Source of the DNA: Desulfocapsa sp.
GTDB taxonomy: Bacteria > Desulfobacterota > Desulfobulbia > Desulfobulbales > Desulfocapsaceae
Reading direction: 5' to 3'
Assembly (NCBI GenBank): GCA_013792135.1
Contig: VMSP01000004.1
Span: forward strand, 1 to 64,000
DNA: 64,000 nucleotides
Of this stretch, positions 11,775 through 64,000 are shown one piece after another; within the stretch, counting starts at the first letter, position 1; each line of letters opens with the position of its first letter. The translations under genes were made by a program, and so were the position numbers. The notes below the pieces were generated by a model that saw only the letters and a program-made list of their open reading frames with translations, did not search any database and was not told the origin of the DNA.

Positions 11775-11827
11775 GAATTGCCAGGAATGACTCATTGCAT
11801 GTTGTGTTATACGTTATCTTGCAAGGC

Positions 11828-56111: not shown

Positions 56112-58046
56112 ATGAAAAAAACTCTATTTACCATGTTATTTCTCGTTCTCCTGTTTGCTTCTTTTCGGGGAGGGACCTGGTACAGTCAGTATTGGACAGG
56201 CGGAAATCATAACCTGGGAGAAGAACGCTCGATTCTTCACTATGTCGATCCCATGAATCCGGGGAATGTCTCTGATCAACCCGGAATTGCGCCGTGTGGC
56301 ATGCCTATGGAACCTGTTTATGGCGATGGAACGGGTGTAGGAGATCTCACAAGTGCCGGAAGAATGATGCCAGCTGGTACCGTGAAAATAACACCTCAGA
56401 AGCAGCAGGTCATCGGTGTACGAATCGGTACAGCAGAGAGGGTATCTGAAACACACGAAATACGAACATTGGGCCGCATAGCGGCGGATGAAAATCGGAT
56501 ATATCCCCTGGTTTCGGCTGCCGATGGCTGGATGTCGTATATCCCTGAGAGTACCATCGGCAGCCTGGTTCAAAAAAATCAACTCATGGCTCTGATCAGA
56601 ATTTACAGCTATGATTTTTTCTCTTGGCAGCAGCGATATCTGACTGAACTTGCCAATACGGGACGCAGGCGGTTGCCCGCAACAAATTTTACCGGAGCCC
56701 GGCAACCAGCGGCGTATCCGTATAGATCGCCTCGTAAAGCGATGCAGCCATCAGTAGGTATGCAGAATGAGATGAATCTGTCGCCTGCAGCCATGTCGGC
56801 TGAAAAAGCGACTTCTGCAACTCTGCCGTCTGAGACATCATCTACAGAGTTGTTGCCGTCCGAATCTCCCCAGACCGAGCCCCCACAGCCAGGAAGCCAA
56901 CCGTCTCTTGGAATGCCGTTTACCGCGATGCGCTCCAGTGTCTCTCCGTCAGCAGTATTACAACCCGATATCCACCAAGCCGAAACACCTCCGTCTGATA
57001 CAATTCCTTCCGTTGAAAAAGCGCGTTCTGCGACTCTGCCGTCTGAGACATCATCTACAGAGATGTTGCCGTCCGGATCCGAACCTCCTCAACCTGGAAG
57101 TCAACCGTCTCTTGGAATGCCGTTTGCTGCGATGCGGTCCAATGTCTCTTCGCCGGCAGCACTTCAGCCTGCTATAATTCCTTCCGGCGAAAAAACGCCC
57201 GTACCCATGCAGAATATGAACGAGCATTCGATGCATGAGGAAGAAGAAAATCCTGCAGACTATGCAGATTTTGCATTCATACGTGAAGATGATATCCTTT
57301 ATGCCAACAAGGCAAAACTGGAACTGTTGAATCTGGGTGTCGGAGCAACGCAGCTCGAGGGGCTTGCCCGTAGCGGCAGATATGTGAAGACCATTGAAGT
57401 TAGATCTCCGGTCACCGGTCTGGTGACCGAACGCAGTATCTCCCCTTTGCAAAAGGTTGATCGTGGCACCGAATGTTTTCGGGTGGCTGATTTGAGCCGC
57501 GTGTGGATTCTGGCGGATGTTTTCAATACTGACGCGCAATATATCCAACCGGGAATGAGGGCCAGGATATCTCTTCCTCGACAGAACAGATATGTTGAAG
57601 CCCATGTGAGTGACGTTATGCCGCCGTTTGATGCCAAGACGCGTACGTTGAAGGTGCGTCTGGAGATGGATAATCCGGACTATGTATTTCGTCCCGAGAT
57701 GTTTGTCGATGTCGAGTTTCTCATTCCTCTGCCGGAGGCCATCACGGTTCCGGTAGATGCGATCCTGGATTCTGGAAGCAGGAAGGTTGTCTTTGTTGCC
57801 TTGGAGGAGGGGCTTTTCGAACCTCGGGAGGTCGTAACTGGTTGGCGGTTTGGTGACCGAGTTGAAATTATCAAAGGACTGGATTCGGGAGAACAGATCG
57901 TTATTTCAGGTAACTTTCTCATTGATTCTGAGAGCCGGATGAAATTGGCAGTAGCCGGACTCATGAAACAGCCCGAAACTGAAGATGTGATTTCGGATAA
58001 ATTAAAACCCGACACTTCCGGTCAGGGTGAGCTCAGGCATGATTAA
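56112..58046 (+). CDS. cusB: CusB-like RND efflux periplasmic adaptor with low-complexity hairpin insert
   Basis: A 644-residue membrane-fusion protein for a heavy-metal RND pump. N-terminal signal/anchor (1-20) precedes a heavy-metal-binding domain (about 42-70: HYVDPMNPG, APCGMPMEPVY). The barrel-sandwich (about 115-165 and 420-445), beta-barrel and membrane-proximal domains (to about 620) are standard for CusB. The alpha-hairpin is unusual: between the descending arm (SWQQRYLTELANTG, 171-184) and the ascending arm (ILYANKAKLELLNLG, 395-409) lies a Pro/Ser/Thr-rich insert of about 200 residues with a duplicated unit and Met/His-rich end (PMQNMNEHSMHEEEE). The stop overlaps the cusA start by 8 bases. 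No CusC-type channel gene is adjacent. Confidence 0.87.
   Translation: MKKTLFTMLFLVLLFASFRGGTWYSQYWTGGNHNLGEERSILHYVDPMNPGNVSDQPGIAPCGMPMEPVYGDGTGVGDLTSAGRMMPAGTVKITPQKQQVIGVRIGTAERVSETHEIRTLGRIAADENRIYPLVSAADGWMSYIPESTIGSLVQKNQLMALIRIYSYDFFSWQQRYLTELANTGRRRLPATNFTGARQPAAYPYRSPRKAMQPSVGMQNEMNLSPAAMSAEKATSATLPSETSSTELLPSESPQTEPPQPGSQPSLGMPFTAMRSSVSPSAVLQPDIHQAETPPSDTIPSVEKARSATLPSETSSTEMLPSGSEPPQPGSQPSLGMPFAAMRSNVSSPAALQPAIIPSGEKTPVPMQNMNEHSMHEEEENPADYADFAFIREDDILYANKAKLELLNLGVGATQLEGLARSGRYVKTIEVRSPVTGLVTERSISPLQKVDRGTECFRVADLSRVWILADVFNTDAQYIQPGMRARISLPRQNRYVEAHVSDVMPPFDAKTRTLKVRLEMDNPDYVFRPEMFVDVEFLIPLPEAITVPVDAILDSGSRKVVFVALEEGLFEPREVVTGWRFGDRVEIIKGLDSGEQIVISGNFLIDSESRMKLAVAGLMKQPETEDVISDKLKPDTSGQGELRHD
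56801..57190 (+). repeat. tandem duplication of about 213 bp inside cusB
   Basis: Two diverged copies, 56801-57013 and 57014 to about 57190, offset by 213 bases (71 codons) at the best-matching part TCTGAGACATCATCTACAGA. Both encode ATLPSETSSTExLPS...PPQPGSQPSLGMPF.AMRS.VS. The second copy is shorter by several in-frame deletions. The frame is kept throughout, so the insert is translated. Confidence 0.85.
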
Positions 58047-61000
58047 CCGCATCATTGATTTATCCGTTAACAACCGGTTTATCATTTTTACTCTGATTGC
58101 TGCAGCCTGTATCGCAGGCTGGTGGTCGATGAACCGCGTTGCTCTGGACGCCATTCCGGATCTTAGTGACACTCAGGTAATTATTTATTCACGATGGGAC
58201 CGCAGCCCGAATATCATCGAAGATCAGGTCACCTATCCAGTCGTGACCGCGATGCTGGGTGCGCCACGGGTAAAGGCGGTTCGTGGTTTTTCCGATTTTG
58301 GTTACTCCTATGTCTATGTCATCTTTGAAGAGGGCACCGACATTTACTGGGCTCGCTCCAGAACCCTGGAATATCTTTCCGGTGTGTTGCCGCGCCTCCC
58401 GAAAGGGGTGCAGACCGAATTGGGACCGGATGCCACGGGTCTGGGCTGGATTTTTCAGTATGCCCTGGTGGATGAGTCCGGGCAGCATAGTCTTGCTGAT
58501 CTTCGATCCTGCCAGGATTGGATGGTGCGTTACCATCTGAAATCGGTTCCCGGTGTTGCTGAGGTTGCTCCCATCGGCGGTTTCAGCAAACAGTATCAGG
58601 TAAATGTGGATCCGAATCGGCTGCAAGCCTACAACCTTCCCATCAGTCGCGTGGTGGACGCGGTTCGGGGGGGCAATAGTGAGACGGGCGGCCGGATGAT
58701 CGAGTTTGGTGGGACCGAGTATATGGTCCGGGGGCGAGGATATGCCAAGTCCATTGCCGATTTTGAAAATATTCTGCTGGCGACCGATGACAGCGGCACC
58801 CCGATTCGTATCAAGGATGTGGGACAGGTGGCTCTGGGGCCGGATTTGCGCAGGGGGATCACTGATCTTGACGGCGAAGGTGAGGTCGTCTCCGGCATTG
58901 TGGTCATGCGGCAGGGACAGAATGCCCTTGATGTTATTGACCGCGTCAAGGCCAAAATCCGGGAAATTGAGCCTGGATTGCCTTCTGGGGTGAAGATCGT
59001 TCCCATCTATGACCGATCTGAGTTGATCCTTCGGGCCATCGACAACCTGAAGTCCACCCTGGTGGAAATCATTGTCACTGTAGCGCTGGTGATCCTTCTT
59101 TTTCTCTGGCACATTCCCAGTGCCATCATTCCTATGATCACCATTCCCATTGCGGTTCTGTTGACCTTTATCCCCTTTCAGCTGATGGGGCTCACCGCCA
59201 ATATCATGTCGCTCGGGGGCATTGCCATCGCCATCGGCGTCATGGTCGATGCGGCGATCGTCATGGTTGAGCAGACGCACAAAAAGCTGGAGGAATGGGA
59301 ACAAAACGGCCGGAAAGAGGATTGCCGGACGGTTATTATCGCTGCCGTTAAACAGGTTGCCGGGCCCAGCTTTTTTGCCATGCTGGTGATTGCAGTCTCT
59401 TTTTTACCGGTGCTGACCCTTGAGGCTCAGGAGGGCCGTCTGTTTAAACCGCTTGCCTACACCAAAACTCTTTCCATGTTTATTGCCGCTGTGCTGGTTA
59501 TCACCCTGGATCCGGCGTTGCGACTGTTTTTTACCCGTCTCCATAACTATGATTTCCGGCCCCGGTGGATGTGTCGGGTGGCGAACGCCGTGGTCGTGGG
59601 AACCATCCATTCTGAAGAAAAACATCCGATCAGCCGGGTGCTGATTCGGTTCTATCAACCCATTGCCGAGTGGACGCTGCGACGAAAATGGATCGTGCTC
59701 GCAGTGGCCTGTATTCTGGTGATCGGGACTGTTCCGGTCTTTCTGCAACTGGGGTCGGAATTTATGCCGCCACTTGATGAGGGGGCAATCCTCTATATGC
59801 CCTCAACCATGCCGGGTATTTCTATCACCGAAGCGCAGCGCTTACTTCAGGCAACGGACCGGATTATCCATCAGTTTCCGGAAGTGGATCGAGTACTGGG
59901 TAAAGCCGGTCATGCCGAGACCGCTACGGATCCGGCACCGCTGTCCATGATGGAAACTGTGATCACTCTCCATCCTAAGGCACAATGGCGGTCCGTGCAT
60001 ACCTGGTATTCTTCATGGGCGCCGGAGTGGGCCAAGGGCATATTGCGCCGTTTCTGGCCTGATCGCATCACCACGGAAGAGCTGATCGGCCTGATGAATG
60101 ATGCCCTCAAACTTCCGGGGCTTGTCAATAGCTGGACCATGCCGATCAAGGGGCGGATCGATATGCTGACCACCGGCGTACGAACGCCGGTCGGGCTTAA
60201 AATTTCCGGGGCCGACCTTACGGTCATTGAGGGGATCGGAACTCAGATTGAAGCCCTTCTACCGGCGGTAAAAGGAACCCGCAGTGTCTTTGCCGAACGG
60301 ACAGGCAGTGGTTATTTTCTGGATTTTGATTGGGATCGTGAGCAACTGGCCTTTTTCGGGCTGAGTATGGACGAGGCCCAGGCTGCAGTTCAGAATGCGA
60401 TCGGCGGAGAAACGGTGACCACGACCGTTGAAGGACGAGAACGCTATTCGGTTAACGTGCGTTACATGCGTGATTTTCGGGCGGATTTGGATTCTCTCGG
60501 CCGTGTTCTGGTTTCAGATCCGACAGGGCAGAAACAGATTCCTGTTGGCCAGATTGCCGATATCAAGGTAAGCAGCGGGCCAGCCATGATTCGCGATGAA
60601 AACGGCTTGTTGACCGGCTACGTGTATGTGGATATGGCCGGACGTGATCCGAACAGCTATATTAAAGAGGCTGGAACCCTGATCAGAGACAGGGTGAAGC
60701 TGCCGGCAGGCTATGTTGTCTCCTGGAGCGGCCAATATGAGGCGATGCAGCGGGTGAAAGAGCGTCTGGGGGTGGTTCTGCCCCTGACTGTGTTCTTGAT
60801 TTTTCTGCTGCTCTATTTGAACACCCGCTCTGCAATCAAAACCTGCATTGTTTTACTGGCAGTACCGTTTTCTGCTATTGGTGCGGTATGGCTGTTGTAT
60901 TTGCTGGGGTATAACATGAGCATCGGAGTCTGGGTTGGATTAATCGCCCTGCTTGGTGTAGACGCGGAAACCGGTGTCTTTATGCTTCTTTATCTTGATA

Positions 61001-61305
61001 TAGCCTATGAACAGGCCAGAAAAGAAGGCCGTCTGCGCAGTCTGGATGAGCTGCGAAAAGCCATTCTTGAAGGGGCTGCCAAACGTCTTCGGCCGAAGTT
61101 TATGACTACGGCCACGATGTTTCTAGGATTGCTTCCGATCATGTGGTCCACGGGTGCAGGGGCCGATGTCATGAAGCGAATTGCGGCGCCCATGATCGGC
61201 GGTATTTTCACCTCATTTTTGTTGGAACTTTTGGTCTATCCGGCGATTTATGAAATCTGGAAATGGAACTTCGAGGTCAAAAAAAACATAAAACGTGAAT
61301 CGTAA
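58039..61305 (+). CDS. cusA: CusA-type Cu(I)/Ag(I) RND efflux pump
   Basis: Proton-driven trimeric inner-membrane pump of the heavy-metal RND group, 1088 residues from the ATG at 58039 (GTG at 58027 is an alternative). The 12-TM plan with two large periplasmic loops is evident. The three methionines that bind copper or silver in E. coli CusA (573, 623, 672) are all conserved as Met587 in AILYMPSTMPG, Met637 in APLSMMETV and Met709 in RIDMLTTG. The TM4 relay motif GVMVDAAIVMVEQTHKK is intact. A short insert (TWYSSWAPEWAKGILRRFWPDR, about 655-676) separates the second and third Met. Coupled to cusB by an 8-base overlap. Confidence 0.94.
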   Translation: MINRIIDLSVNNRFIIFTLIAAACIAGWWSMNRVALDAIPDLSDTQVIIYSRWDRSPNIIEDQVTYPVVTAMLGAPRVKAVRGFSDFGYSYVYVIFEEGTDIYWARSRTLEYLSGVLPRLPKGVQTELGPDATGLGWIFQYALVDESGQHSLADLRSCQDWMVRYHLKSVPGVAEVAPIGGFSKQYQVNVDPNRLQAYNLPISRVVDAVRGGNSETGGRMIEFGGTEYMVRGRGYAKSIADFENILLATDDSGTPIRIKDVGQVALGPDLRRGITDLDGEGEVVSGIVVMRQGQNALDVIDRVKAKIREIEPGLPSGVKIVPIYDRSELILRAIDNLKSTLVEIIVTVALVILLFLWHIPSAIIPMITIPIAVLLTFIPFQLMGLTANIMSLGGIAIAIGVMVDAAIVMVEQTHKKLEEWEQNGRKEDCRTVIIAAVKQVAGPSFFAMLVIAVSFLPVLTLEAQEGRLFKPLAYTKTLSMFIAAVLVITLDPALRLFFTRLHNYDFRPRWMCRVANAVVVGTIHSEEKHPISRVLIRFYQPIAEWTLRRKWIVLAVACILVIGTVPVFLQLGSEFMPPLDEGAILYMPSTMPGISITEAQRLLQATDRIIHQFPEVDRVLGKAGHAETATDPAPLSMMETVITLHPKAQWRSVHTWYSSWAPEWAKGILRRFWPDRITTEELIGLMNDALKLPGLVNSWTMPIKGRIDMLTTGVRTPVGLKISGADLTVIEGIGTQIEALLPAVKGTRSVFAERTGSGYFLDFDWDREQLAFFGLSMDEAQAAVQNAIGGETVTTTVEGRERYSVNVRYMRDFRADLDSLGRVLVSDPTGQKQIPVGQIADIKVSSGPAMIRDENGLLTGYVYVDMAGRDPNSYIKEAGTLIRDRVKLPAGYVVSWSGQYEAMQRVKERLGVVLPLTVFLIFLLLYLNTRSAIKTCIVLLAVPFSAIGAVWLLYLLGYNMSIGVWVGLIALLGVDAETGVFMLLYLDIAYEQARKEGRLRSLDELRKAILEGAAKRLRPKFMTTATMFLGLLPIMWSTGAGADVMKRIAAPMIGGIFTSFLLELLVYPAIYEIWKWNFEVKKNIKRES

Positions 61306-61378: not shown

Positions 61379-61891
61379 ATGAAAAGAGGATTTTTTTTCG
61401 TTATGTTAGTTGTGTTTACGTTGTCCCTGGCTGGAGTTGTAGTGGCTCAGGATGATATGCAAAAGGAGCCATCCTGTAAGCTCTGTGGTATGGACAGGGC
61501 CAAGTTTGCGCATAGCAGGATGTTTGTGACCTATGATGATGGAACAACGATTGGAACCTGCAGTATTCATTGTCTGGCCATTGACCTCGCCGTGAATATC
61601 GACAAAACGCCCAGCTCGCTTGAGGTGGGAGACTTCAACAGCAAAAATCTCATCGATGCGGAAAAGGCATTTTGGGTTATTGGTGGAAACAAGCCCGGAG
61701 TCATGACAACACAGGCCAAATGGGCCTTTGAAAAGAAAGAGGATGCGGAACGATTTATTATGGGAAACAGTGGAACCCTGGCGACCTTTGATGAGGCGAT
61801 GAAAGCGACCTACGAAAGTATGTATGCCGATACAAAGATGATACGGGAGAAGAGAAAAATGAAGATGATGCACGGAGCTGGGCATCACTAA
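61379..61891 (+). CDS. nosL: NosL-family copper-binding periplasmic protein, first copy
   Basis: A 170-residue exported protein. The start at 61379 has AAAAGGAG before it and is followed by a signal peptide ending VVVAQ. Metal-binding candidates are CKLCGMDRAKFAHSRM, then CSIHC, and a Met/His-rich tail (MKMMHGAGHH). NosL is a copper chaperone for nitrous oxide reductase maturation; no nosZ lies in the window. The gene stands 73 bases after cusA and 25 bases before a second NosL gene. Confidence 0.85.
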   Translation: MKRGFFFVMLVVFTLSLAGVVVAQDDMQKEPSCKLCGMDRAKFAHSRMFVTYDDGTTIGTCSIHCLAIDLAVNIDKTPSSLEVGDFNSKNLIDAEKAFWVIGGNKPGVMTTQAKWAFEKKEDAERFIMGNSGTLATFDEAMKATYESMYADTKMIREKRKMKMMHGAGHH

Positions 61892-61916
61892 GGGCTATCA
61901 ATCAGGAGGAATTCTC

Positions 61917-62390
61917 ATGCATGTTGTTCGGCTGATCGCTGTTGCTGTTTTTCTTATATTGGTATTGCCGCTGCCGGGCGGAGCCGCACCCGTTATGGTA
62001 GCAAAAACGGACAAGTGTCCGGTCTGCGGCATGTTTGTAGCAAAGTATCCAGATTTTCTGGCCCAGATCATCTTCGCCGATGGCTCCTATGTGCTTTTTG
62101 ATGGCGCTAAGGATATGTTTAAATATTATTTTAATATTAAAAAATATCAAGCGTCGAAGGATCTGTCCGACATCGCCTTCATTTATGTCACGGATTACTA
62201 TAGTATGACCCCGATCGATGGTCGGACGGCCTGGTATGTCGCAGGTAGCGATGTCTTTGGTCCCATGGGGCGGGAACTCATGCCGTTTGTACAAGAAGCG
62301 GATGCAGCGGAATTCATAAAGGACCATTCCGGGAAAAAACTGATTCGATTTGATGAGGTAGCACCTGACCTGATTCAAGGGCTGGATTGA
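61917..62390 (+). CDS. nosL: NosL-family copper-binding periplasmic protein, second copy
   Basis: A 157-residue exported protein with signal peptide (about 1-23, ending GGAAP) and the NosL motif DKCPVCGMFVAKYPDF followed by AQIIFADGSYVLFDGAKDM and WYVAGSDVFGPMGRELMPF. It has a single CxxC-GM site, unlike its upstream neighbour, which adds CSIHC. AGGAGG precedes the ATG. Its stop overlaps the next start (TGATG). Confidence 0.88.
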   Translation: MHVVRLIAVAVFLILVLPLPGGAAPVMVAKTDKCPVCGMFVAKYPDFLAQIIFADGSYVLFDGAKDMFKYYFNIKKYQASKDLSDIAFIYVTDYYSMTPIDGRTAWYVAGSDVFGPMGRELMPFVQEADAAEFIKDHSGKKLIRFDEVAPDLIQGLD

Positions 62391-62734
62391 TGTTGGAGAG
62401 AAAGTCGGATCTTTTTTTCAGTGCTCTGGTTGCGGGGGCGCTCCTGATTTGTCTGATGTTCATGGATGCGGCCATCAGCCAGCGTCTTGATAGAGAATTT
62501 GTTCAGGAACGGCGTGAGGTCGTCAGGGTACTGACGCTGACTGATTTGTGTCTGTTTACCGAGGCGCGCTACACTCGCCATCCCAGTATGGCGGATTTAC
62601 ATACGCCGTTTCAGGACCATCCGATGTCTTTTGACCATTTTCCATCGGGCGCTATTATGGCGGTACCACCTCATTTGAAACGTAAGGCAGGGACGCTCCA
62701 GCGATGGATAAGCGACCCACGGGAGCGGCAGTAA
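62390..62734 (+). CDS. small membrane-anchored His/Met-rich protein of unknown function
   Basis: A 114-residue protein with one N-terminal TM helix (about 9-27) and a periplasmic tail. The tail contains possible metal ligands Cys54, His64, Met67, His71, His77, Met79, His83, Met90 and His95 within 42 residues (CLFTEARYTRHPS...HTPFQDHPMSFDHFP). I do not recognise a named family. Its place between NosL and an ABC permease, with start-stop overlaps, suggests a copper-handling or assembly role. Not a signal-peptide-only fragment: composition matches its neighbours. Confidence 0.7.
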   Translation: MLERKSDLFFSALVAGALLICLMFMDAAISQRLDREFVQERREVVRVLTLTDLCLFTEARYTRHPSMADLHTPFQDHPMSFDHFPSGAIMAVPPHLKRKAGTLQRWISDPRERQ

Positions 62735-62738
62735 AAAT

Positions 62739-63893
62739 ATGGGAGCCATTGAAAAGCAACGGAATATCCTGGATTTTACCCTTTCTTCTCTGGGGAGGAG
62801 AAAGGGTAAAAATATCGCCTTGGTGGTGGTCTACACGTTTGTAATCTTCCTGTTGGCCTCTGTTTTGTTTTTTACGCATTCTCTGAAGAAAGAGGCGTTC
62901 CTGATCCTTCAGGATGCTCCTGAGATGACGGTTCAAAGACTGTTGGCTGGCCGGCAGGACCTGATCCCAACGCACTATATCGATACCATCAGGCAGATCA
63001 GGGGGGTTCAGTCAGTTGCGCCGCGCCTATGGGGATATTACTACGACGCCATGAGCGGTGCAAATTATACCTTGATGGTCAATGCGGAGTTAAACGACCG
63101 GGCCGGAGAGATCATCATCGGCAATGGCGTATCAATGCGGAGTATGAGCGGGAAACGCAATCAAGCCCTTCGGAGAAATGACATCATCCCCTTTAAAACC
63201 TACGACGGATCTGTCTTGACTTTGAAGGTAAGAGGGCTTCTTCCTTTTGCCTCAGAGCTGGTTACTGCTGATCTGATACTGGTATCCGAGGCAGATTTTA
63301 GAAAGCTCTTTTCCATTGCTAATGATCAGGCCACGGACTTAGTGCTCAATGTCAGAAATGCTAAAGAGCTTTCTACTATTGCCGCCAAGATTACCCAAAT
63401 CCATCCGGATACGCGCCCGATACTGCGGGAAGAGATACTGCGAACCTATGATGCGGTTTTCGACTGGCGTGGAGGGGTTATCTTCATGGTTCTGTCAGGC
63501 GTTTTCTTTGCCTTCATCATCCTGGCATGGGACAAGGCAACGGGATTGAGCGCGGAGGAAAAACGGGAAATCGGCATCCTCAAGGCAATCGGCTGGGAAA
63601 CCTCGGATATTCTGCTGATGAAATTCTGGGAAGGTTCGGCTGTGTCCATGGCGGCGTTTTTCATGGGAATATTTCTGGCCTATCTGCATATCTTCCTGGC
63701 ATCTTCCATTCTGTTTGAACCTGTACTGAAAGGATGGTCGGTTCTCTATCCCAGTTTCAGGCTTACGCCGTATATCAGTGTTTATCATATAGCGACCCTG
63801 TTTTTTTTAACGGTCATTCCCTATACCGTGGTAACTATCGTGCCGTCGTGGCGATCTGCAACGATTGACCCGGATTCTGTTATGAGGATGTAA
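62739..63893 (+). CDS. FtsX/MacB-type ABC transporter permease
   Basis: A 384-residue permease with four TM helices: one near the N-terminus (about 26-47, NIALVVVYTFVIFLLASVLFF) and three near the C-terminus (about 250-380). A large periplasmic domain lies between. The cytoplasmic coupling loop EEKREIGILKAIGWETSDILLMKFWEG is typical of FtsX-like permeases (MacB, LolC). It begins 4 bases after the small His-rich gene and is followed by its ATPase after 4 bases. FtsX-type systems move lipoproteins, antimicrobial compounds or transmit force; here the NosL neighbours point to copper-protein maturation or release. Confidence 0.9.
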   Translation: MGAIEKQRNILDFTLSSLGRRKGKNIALVVVYTFVIFLLASVLFFTHSLKKEAFLILQDAPEMTVQRLLAGRQDLIPTHYIDTIRQIRGVQSVAPRLWGYYYDAMSGANYTLMVNAELNDRAGEIIIGNGVSMRSMSGKRNQALRRNDIIPFKTYDGSVLTLKVRGLLPFASELVTADLILVSEADFRKLFSIANDQATDLVLNVRNAKELSTIAAKITQIHPDTRPILREEILRTYDAVFDWRGGVIFMVLSGVFFAFIILAWDKATGLSAEEKREIGILKAIGWETSDILLMKFWEGSAVSMAAFFMGIFLAYLHIFLASSILFEPVLKGWSVLYPSFRLTPYISVYHIATLFFLTVIPYTVVTIVPSWRSATIDPDSVMRM

Positions 63894-63897
63894 TGTT

Positions 63898-64000
63898 ATG
63901 ATCCGTCTCCAGAATGTCAGAAAGGTCTTTAACGCTGACAAAGCCAATGAGTTTGTGGCCATCGAAGGCGTGAATCTCTCCATCGACTCTCATGGGGCCA
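63898..64000 (+). CDS. ABC transporter ATP-binding protein, 5' part only
   Basis: The window cuts this gene after 34 codons. The visible start reads MIRLQNVRKVFNADKANEFV followed by AIEGVNLSIDSHGA, the first strand and A-loop region of a LolD/MacB-type ATPase, just before Walker A. It is the obvious partner of the permease upstream. The ATG overlaps nothing and follows the permease stop by 4 bases. Confidence 0.85.
   Translation, partial: MIRLQNVRKVFNADKANEFVAIEGVNLSIDSHGA

Follow-up and report, generated by a model that had tools for sequence, protein, structure and literature searches.

The conserved residues of NosL proteins comprise a CXM motif and one more methionine, with the CXM pair as the proposed Cu(I) ligands in the account given in PMC6530538. 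NosL, SenC and Cus genes are named as neighbours of CutF-like genes where PMC8456105 describes them, and the ompB cluster, as presented in PMC5566968, contains a SCO1/SenC gene. Here we analyze a 64,000-nucleotide stretch from Desulfocapsa sp. (GenBank assembly GCA_013792135.1, genome G000), namely, bases 1-64000 of contig VMSP01000004.1 (C141, 66051 bases), hereafter the window, at the end of which genes for a CusBA-type copper pump are followed by two NosL genes (NosL1 and NosL2) and by genes for a short protein (Small), an FtsX-type permease, an ATPase of the ATP-binding cassette (ABC) class and a membrane protein (MemC). We show that the part of this cluster from NosL to MemC, hereafter the module, is conserved across distant bacteria and is associated with exported copper enzymes. 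The chances appear about even that the module is a NosL-fed, ATP-driven machine that would deliver copper to exported cuproenzymes in the periplasm, and at the window locus the neighbour is most likely a very large copper enzyme. The cassette, present in at least four bacterial groups, apparently has not been described before: in the open-licence literature, which is no proof of absence, we found no published account in which NosL, a transporter of the FtsX/LolCDE type and these two families of membrane proteins occur together.

A conserved NosL-Small-FtsX-ABC-MemC gene cluster

A scan of named genomes for NosL2 yielded 25 loci. In 19 of these, the FtsX, ABC and MemC genes follow downstream in the same order, an agreement above chance; among the remaining six, at least two (L018 and L023) stop at or near a contig end. 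The named loci come from Desulfobacterota, Nitrospirota, Campylobacterota (including Sulfurimonas) and Chromatiaceae; two purple sulfur bacteria, Thiorhodococcus drewsii and Imhoffiella purpurea, are among them. The MemC profile (E<=0.001) matched 60 of the 395 genomes in the window's phylum, 31 of 198 in Nitrospirota (the phylum of L012) and 11 of 369 in the class of Thiorhodococcus, counts that include distant and partial matches at loci where parts of the module are missing.

Upstream of MemC at 79 loci, which include the window's own and three places represented twice (L006/L049, L011/L052 and L028/L053), we detected FtsX in 72, the ABC ATPase in 71, some NosL in 60, Small in 55, and all four in 47. 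The absences are upper bounds because simple gene calling breaks down where the GC content is high (L075, L082), and some of the 19 loci without NosL are truncated by contig ends or poorly called. A CusA or CusB gene (scores >100) is located within 12 kilobases (kb) of MemC on the same strand at 19 of the 79 loci and on the other strand at six. Given that CusBA is found near few of the MemC loci, the conserved unit is NosL-Small-FtsX-ABC-MemC, with CusBA as an optional neighbour. Of the seven-gene order that the first-pass annotation, which was made from the window sequence, proposed to check for conservation, this core is the conserved part.

The NosL component varies. At the Sulfurimonas locus L024, NosL1 and NosL2 are fused into one protein (as judged by eye), and L008 carries several NosL genes within one stretch. 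L093 (7000-8352) encodes a fusion of NosL and Phenol_MetA_deg domains, a protein that the 466-residue NosL of L008 resembles. At six loci (L013, L015, L016, L092, L095 and L096), a further ABC ATPase and/or FtsX-type permease is encoded just upstream of or beside NosL2, so that NosL may not be confined to a single FtsX-type transporter as its partner.

Association of the module with exported copper enzymes

To assess the genome-wide association, 40 MemC-positive genomes of Desulfobacterota (drawn from the 60 above, with a strong MemC match and completeness of at least 91%) were compared with 40 MemC-negative genomes of the same phylum (17 of the first 20 listed, with 23 more taken in handle order from G015-G040), without matching between the groups. 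The multicopper oxidase profile was detected in 30 of the positive and 7 of the negative genomes (P 4e-7), and COX1 in 25 and 13, respectively (P 0.013). At least one of COX1, multicopper oxidase and NosZ was represented in all 40 positive genomes compared to 15 of the 40 negative ones (P 2e-10); when genomes were collapsed by family, with some families represented in both groups, the result was 19/19 versus 13/35 (P 2e-6). Matches to PF07731 lie within 20 kb of MemC in 12 of the 40 positive genomes, against roughly 0.75 sites expected for an assumed genome of 3.7 megabases, with the positions for this count transcribed by hand.

The immediate neighbourhoods were compared between 60 module stretches (L049-L108), which represent 56 of the 60 MemC-positive genomes (all except G000, G094, G124 and G374) and several of which are cut by contig ends, and 40 control stretches, hand-picked places in some of the same genomes. 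Multicopper oxidases (12/60 versus 1/40, P 0.013), SCO1 (11/60 versus 0/40, P 0.003), thioredoxin-like TlpA (11/60 versus 1/40, P 0.025) and CusA-like proteins (18/60 versus 4/40, P 0.025) are enriched in the module stretches. The queries for multicopper oxidases, SCO, TlpA and others were partly drawn from module loci; after removal of the query loci, the counts were 10/58 versus 1/40 for multicopper oxidases and 10/59 versus 0/40 for SCO. FKBP was not significantly enriched (8/60 versus 1/40, P 0.08), and neither outer-membrane efflux genes (2/60 versus 3/40) nor TonB receptors (2/60 versus 1/40) were enriched.

Genome G045 provides a compact example of such a neighbourhood. An MnxG-like oxidase gene, genes for a propeller protein and two SCO1/SenC proteins, the gene of a cytochrome-c-like protein that also carries a binding-protein domain, and the module all run in one direction, with gaps of at most 155 bases from the oxidase to NosL1. 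The oxidase (1807 residues) scores 1835.5 bits with NF041487, compared to an equivalog cut-off of 3100, and is classified by sequence as a relative of MnxG rather than an equivalog. At three other loci (L063, L066 and L083), a Peripla_BP_6 protein is encoded directly upstream of the module, and the copies in L066 and L083 also match cytochrome c.

The CusA-like enrichment fits a different function equally, namely, detoxification, whereby NosL and FtsX-ABC would gather excess periplasmic or membrane-bound copper for export by CusBA, and the nearby multicopper oxidases would, in the manner of CueO, be part of the same resistance island. One strand carries, in succession, a multicopper oxidase gene, CusBA and the module in G367, G139 and G257; a CopA-type P-ATPase (TIGR01511 over the cut-off) is encoded directly upstream of the module in L019, and a P-ATPase gene split across two frames is found upstream in L018. 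In L057, NosL2 is preceded on one strand by genes for an outer-membrane efflux protein, HlyD-type adaptor and MacB-type permease, along with those for an ATPase and a TlpA-like protein, an arrangement that looks like a tripartite pump joined to the module; MacB-type pumps are exporters. However, CusBA is nearby, on either strand, at just 25 of the 79 loci, all 40 module genomes match an exported or membrane cuproenzyme family, and the SCO1 and NosZ neighbours point to cofactor assembly. We consider detoxification a serious rival to copper delivery, although the less likely of the two.

A giant multicopper oxidase downstream of the module

The window genome encodes a single protein matching the multicopper oxidase profile PF07731, on contig C85 (L109). 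A named Desulfobulbaceae genome (L004) is continuous across the break between the two contigs: C141 matches it up to base 11810 (81% across the final 150 bases), and the match to C85 begins at base 11812 (92% over 4.7 kb). On C85, the gene for a repeat protein is followed by those for a 106-residue protein, an isomerase of the FKBP type, a 279-residue protein and, last, a 1210-residue oxidase that contains the motifs HLH, HDH, HPVHFH and HCHILSHEESDMM. In G357, G395 and G396, MemC, the isomerase and the oxidase are encoded in the same order on a single contig; the start of the oxidase gene lies 4.6-4.9 kb past memC, and the oxidases are 78-96% identical. The nearest relatives of the oxidase in the window's lineage are CotA/PhsA-type oxidases, to which FG-GAP repeats are added.

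Between MemC and the FKBP isomerase, L109 (6387-8252) encodes a 622-residue protein with carboxypeptidase-regulatory-like and InlB-type repeats, the length of which varies among relatives. L003 (5731-6051) and L109 (8681-9041) both carry additional bases at the break itself, a point that L004 crosses without interruption (11810/11812). These additions on either side suggest that something, perhaps a mobile element, was inserted in the window genome.

Relationship to the nos system

The first-pass annotation noted that no nitrous oxide reductase genes were visible in the window, suggested that NosL may serve another target, and proposed looking beyond 64 kb for nosZ, nosD, nosF and nosY or other cuproenzyme genes. 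We found no nos operon directly downstream of the module, either at the contig end or in the continuation on C85, where the syntenic genes include those for the FKBP isomerase and the giant multicopper oxidase; a complete nos operon there would, according to the first-pass annotation, have made these ordinary NosL accessory genes. No match to NosZ (nos_propeller, PF18764) and none to COX1 was detected in the window genome. At the locus, NosL is not accompanied by NosD, NosF and NosY, the permease there being of the FtsX type; NosD and NosY elsewhere in the genome were not searched for. Thus, a target of NosL other than nitrous oxide reductase is the better reading here.

This context is not universal. 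NosZ is encoded in 4 of the 60 module genomes and in none of the 20 non-module genomes searched. In G050 and G230, the module follows genes for NosD, an ABC ATPase, NosL, an ABC-2-type permease (scanned in G050 only) and a thioredoxin-like protein of a nosZ cluster, and the NosZ of G230 is of the Sec-dependent type. Because it adjoins NosD, the ABC ATPase and the ABC-2-type permease at these loci, the module does not replace NosDFY. Its position after nosD-nosF-nosL-nosY in these two genomes, together with nos operons being the known home of NosL, would be expected if the module were an accessory nos maturation system retained after the loss of nosZ in the window's lineage. The rarity of nosZ among the module genomes and the wide conservation of the module without it are unlike decay, and we regard such an origin as highly improbable.

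Gene organization at the window locus

The genes attributed to the cluster in the first-pass annotation, those for CusBA, two NosL proteins, a small protein and an FtsX-type permease, are all present in the order claimed, closely spaced or overlapping (Table 1). The ABC module recognized there is represented within the window by the FtsX permease and the beginning of the ATPase gene. Because the window ends inside the cluster, that description was incomplete: the ATPase and MemC genes run past the window end. The CusB and CusA genes overlap by 20 bases, followed by gaps of 73 bases between CusA and NosL1 and 25 bases between NosL1 and NosL2; 4 bases separate Small from FtsX and FtsX from the ATPase, and the ATPase and MemC genes overlap (ATGA). 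Promoter-like sites were near the shuffle mean (12 versus 8.8), and terminator-like sites were above it (16 versus 8.7); neither was used as evidence.

Table 1. Genes of the cluster at the end of the window and in the adjoining part of contig C141
Product	Length (amino acids)	Position	Strand	Profile matches and remarks
CusB-like periplasmic adaptor	644	56112..58046	+	HlyD_D23 154.4 bits; RND_mfp 108 bits (cut-off 94.9)
CusA/CzcA-family resistance-nodulation-division (RND) heavy-metal pump	1092	58027..61305	+	GTG start; TIGR00914 1072.7 bits (cut-off 701)
NosL1, NosL family		61379..61891	+	ATG start; PF05573 46.4 bits (cut-off 24)
NosL2, NosL family		61917..62390	+	PF05573 113 bits (cut-off 24)
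Small	114	62390..62734	+	ATG at 62390 within the NosL2 stop (TGATG); TTG at 62387
FtsX-type ABC permease	384	62739..63893	+	PF02687 35.2 bits (cut-off 25.5)
ABC ATPase	228	63898..64584 (63898..64000 in the window)	+	ABC_tran 99.4 bits
MemC, membrane protein	333	64581..65582 of the contig, past the window	+	Contig read to 66051

CusA scores over the TIGR00914 cut-off and is accordingly assigned to the CusA/CzcA RND pumps; the ACR_tran (CusA) and HlyD_D23 (CusB) domains were confirmed in the Pfam scan, and CusB shows an HMBD match slightly under the cut-off. Ahead of its barrel-sandwich domain, CusB also contains a long insert rich in Ser, Pro and Gln, in which two segments look alike by eye, and its close relatives vary in length from 566 to 647 amino acids; a tandem-repeat scan of the CusB gene found no array.

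Protein components of the module

Both window NosL proteins exceed the curated PF05573 cut-off. The CxxCGM and CSxHC motifs and a second methionine are invariant in NosL1 (12 aligned sequences), as are CPVCGMF and GPMG in NosL2 (17 aligned sequences), such that CGM and a later methionine, the residues characteristic of NosL, are conserved throughout. NosL1 appears by eye to have a signal peptide. By the same inspection, a lipoprotein anchor cysteine is absent in both window proteins, their first cysteines (residues 33 and 34) being part of the CxxCGM motif.

Small contains one hydrophobic N-terminal stretch (by eye) and a tail motif common to its copies, LTDLCLFTEARYTRHPSxADLxTPFQDxPxSxEHFPSG, which fades in Campylobacterota. 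Its initial labelling as His/Met-rich is partly apt, with 5 His and 6 Met among the 114 residues counted by eye from the ATG at 62390. Neither Small nor MemC matched any Pfam or NCBIfam family over the cut-off.

The predicted model of the FtsX permease (predicted local distance difference test, pLDDT, 81.1) has a periplasmic domain of the LolCDE/MacB fold. The best Foldseek match is LolCDE chain E (1.3e-14), followed by MacB (5.1e-13), and HrtBA, YbbAP and BceAB match as well. The ATPase is nearest to the FtsE/LolD/MacB models, and the transporter falls below the NCBIfam equivalog cut-offs seen. Judged by this model, the FtsX permease with its LolC/E-MacB fold and the LolD/MacB-like ATPase are predicted to form a type VII ABC transporter. 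The fold matches to LolCDE, MacB and BceAB would suit a transporter that, like these systems, acts on lipoproteins or on an antimicrobial or stress signal, with NosL being co-regulated only. However, NosL2, Small, FtsX, ABC and MemC of the window are 4 bases apart or overlapping, some NosL accompanies the cassette at 60 of the 79 loci, with part of the other 19 cut or poorly called, and copper-gene neighbours recur. Such a function therefore appears improbable.

MemC was modelled from the L004 protein (92% identical), with a pLDDT of 86.8, a predicted template modelling score of 0.84 and eight long helices. Five residues, M87, C88, C168, C169 and C251, are invariant among 19 sequences. The invariant cysteines lie in loops on the side poor in lysine and arginine (3.1 versus 8.2 per protein), and these loops are predicted to be periplasmic because of the few positive charges there (positive-inside rule). 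Foldseek returned no PDB chain for the model at E<=1e-3. In a second structural comparison, helical bundles, COX3 and CcmF/CcsBA reached VIA Z scores of at most 12.2, with most of these matches over half of the model; such scores are below the informative level of the tool for helical proteins, where, by its own guidance, only a common helix arrangement may be shared. Neither comparison gave a clear fold match for MemC.

Proposed function of the module

The two soluble NosL proteins would carry Cu(I) via their CxxCGM motifs and hand it to an inner-membrane complex putatively formed by the FtsX/LolCDE-type permease, the ABC ATPase, single-pass Small and MemC. By analogy, MemC and Small may form a receiving site that faces the periplasm. 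In MacB and LolCDE, ATP hydrolysis is proposed to pass as movement to the periplasmic domains. In the module, cytoplasmic ATP hydrolysis would likewise move periplasmic domains, whereby copper would be released or transferred to an exported cuproenzyme. In the window's genus, the target would most likely be the giant multicopper oxidase encoded downstream; elsewhere, the targets might include MnxG-like or other multicopper oxidases, NosZ, or oxidases. Where CusBA is adjacent, it would export the copper surplus. In the first-pass annotation, the module was suggested as a possible sorter of periplasmic copper between export and insertion into an enzyme.

Several observations weigh against delivery to cuproenzymes. 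The CusBA and CopA-type neighbours are equally compatible with detoxification. A multicopper oxidase is close to the module in just 12 of the 60 stretches (several of them cut by contig ends), and in G097 and G236 the giant oxidase gene is on the opposite strand, so that the linkage there is one of proximity only. The assembly does not link C141 physically to C85. As for the genome-wide association, some of the multicopper oxidase matches are weak (that of G006 is at 9e-4, and without this genome the count of positives with a cuproenzyme is 39 of 40), NosZ was searched in all 40 positive but in 17 of the 40 negative genomes, the COX1 profile also picks up nitric oxide reductases, and the tests, on the 80 genomes as on the stretches, treat related genomes as independent, with the collapse to families in the genome comparison as the sole correction for phylogeny or habitat. 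Nevertheless, we favour delivery or maturation over pure detoxification because copper is the common theme and the partners that recur are copper enzymes destined for export, together with factors for their assembly.

More broadly, and more tentatively, the module could represent a second general class of copper-enzyme assembly machines, parallel to NosDFY, in which NosL, a LolCDE/MacB-type complex and two new families, Small and the Cys-loop protein MemC, would drive the ATP-dependent metallation of exported cuproenzymes. Its main clients would be the giant multicopper oxidases found outside the cell, and it would operate in anaerobes and metal-cycling bacteria from four or more phyla. A conserved, putatively ATP-driven candidate with named genes makes it testable how the giant extracellular multicopper oxidases of metal-cycling bacteria are supplied with copper. 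The module also offers a likely role for NosL genes outside nos operons, which makes nosL alone a poor marker of the potential to reduce nitrous oxide.

Comparison with known systems

The permease fold with a periplasmic domain and the separate ATPase are shared with the type VII transporters LolCDE, MacB, YbbAP and BceAB, whereas the genetic partners here, NosL, Small and MemC, set the module apart. CusA and CusB head the window cluster as in CusCBA efflux systems, but they are optional neighbours of the module, and no gene for the outer-membrane component CusC is present between CusB and MemC.

The OmpB/MofA multicopper oxidase clusters resemble the window locus in combining a giant exported oxidase with a peptidyl-prolyl isomerase gene (mofA-mofB), as reported in PMC5566968, the main text of which mentions neither NosL nor an ABC transporter. 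The oxidase of the window's lineage differs from these in being nearest to the CotA/PhsA type and in carrying FG-GAP repeats. CutF-CutO of Rhodobacter likewise provides a multicopper oxidase with a periplasmic maturation factor of its own, but no FtsX-type transporter is mentioned in the relevant passages of PMC8456105.

The NosL-NosDFY system for CuZ assembly shares with the module a CXM-containing NosL beside an ABC transporter and service to an exported copper enzyme, the latter being proposed for the module. It is distinguished from the window locus by the FtsX/LolCDE-MacB permease of the latter, the lack of NosD in the cluster, the two NosL proteins without a lipobox, the two extra membrane proteins and the absence of a nosZ match in the genome. 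The two systems adjoin each other in G050 and G230. Finally, the locus of Parageobacillus thermoglucosidasius, which, in the description given in PMC13068155, has NosDFY rather than an FtsX-type permease, is similarly a NosL-ABC system without nosZ at the locus and has been proposed to serve another copper enzyme.

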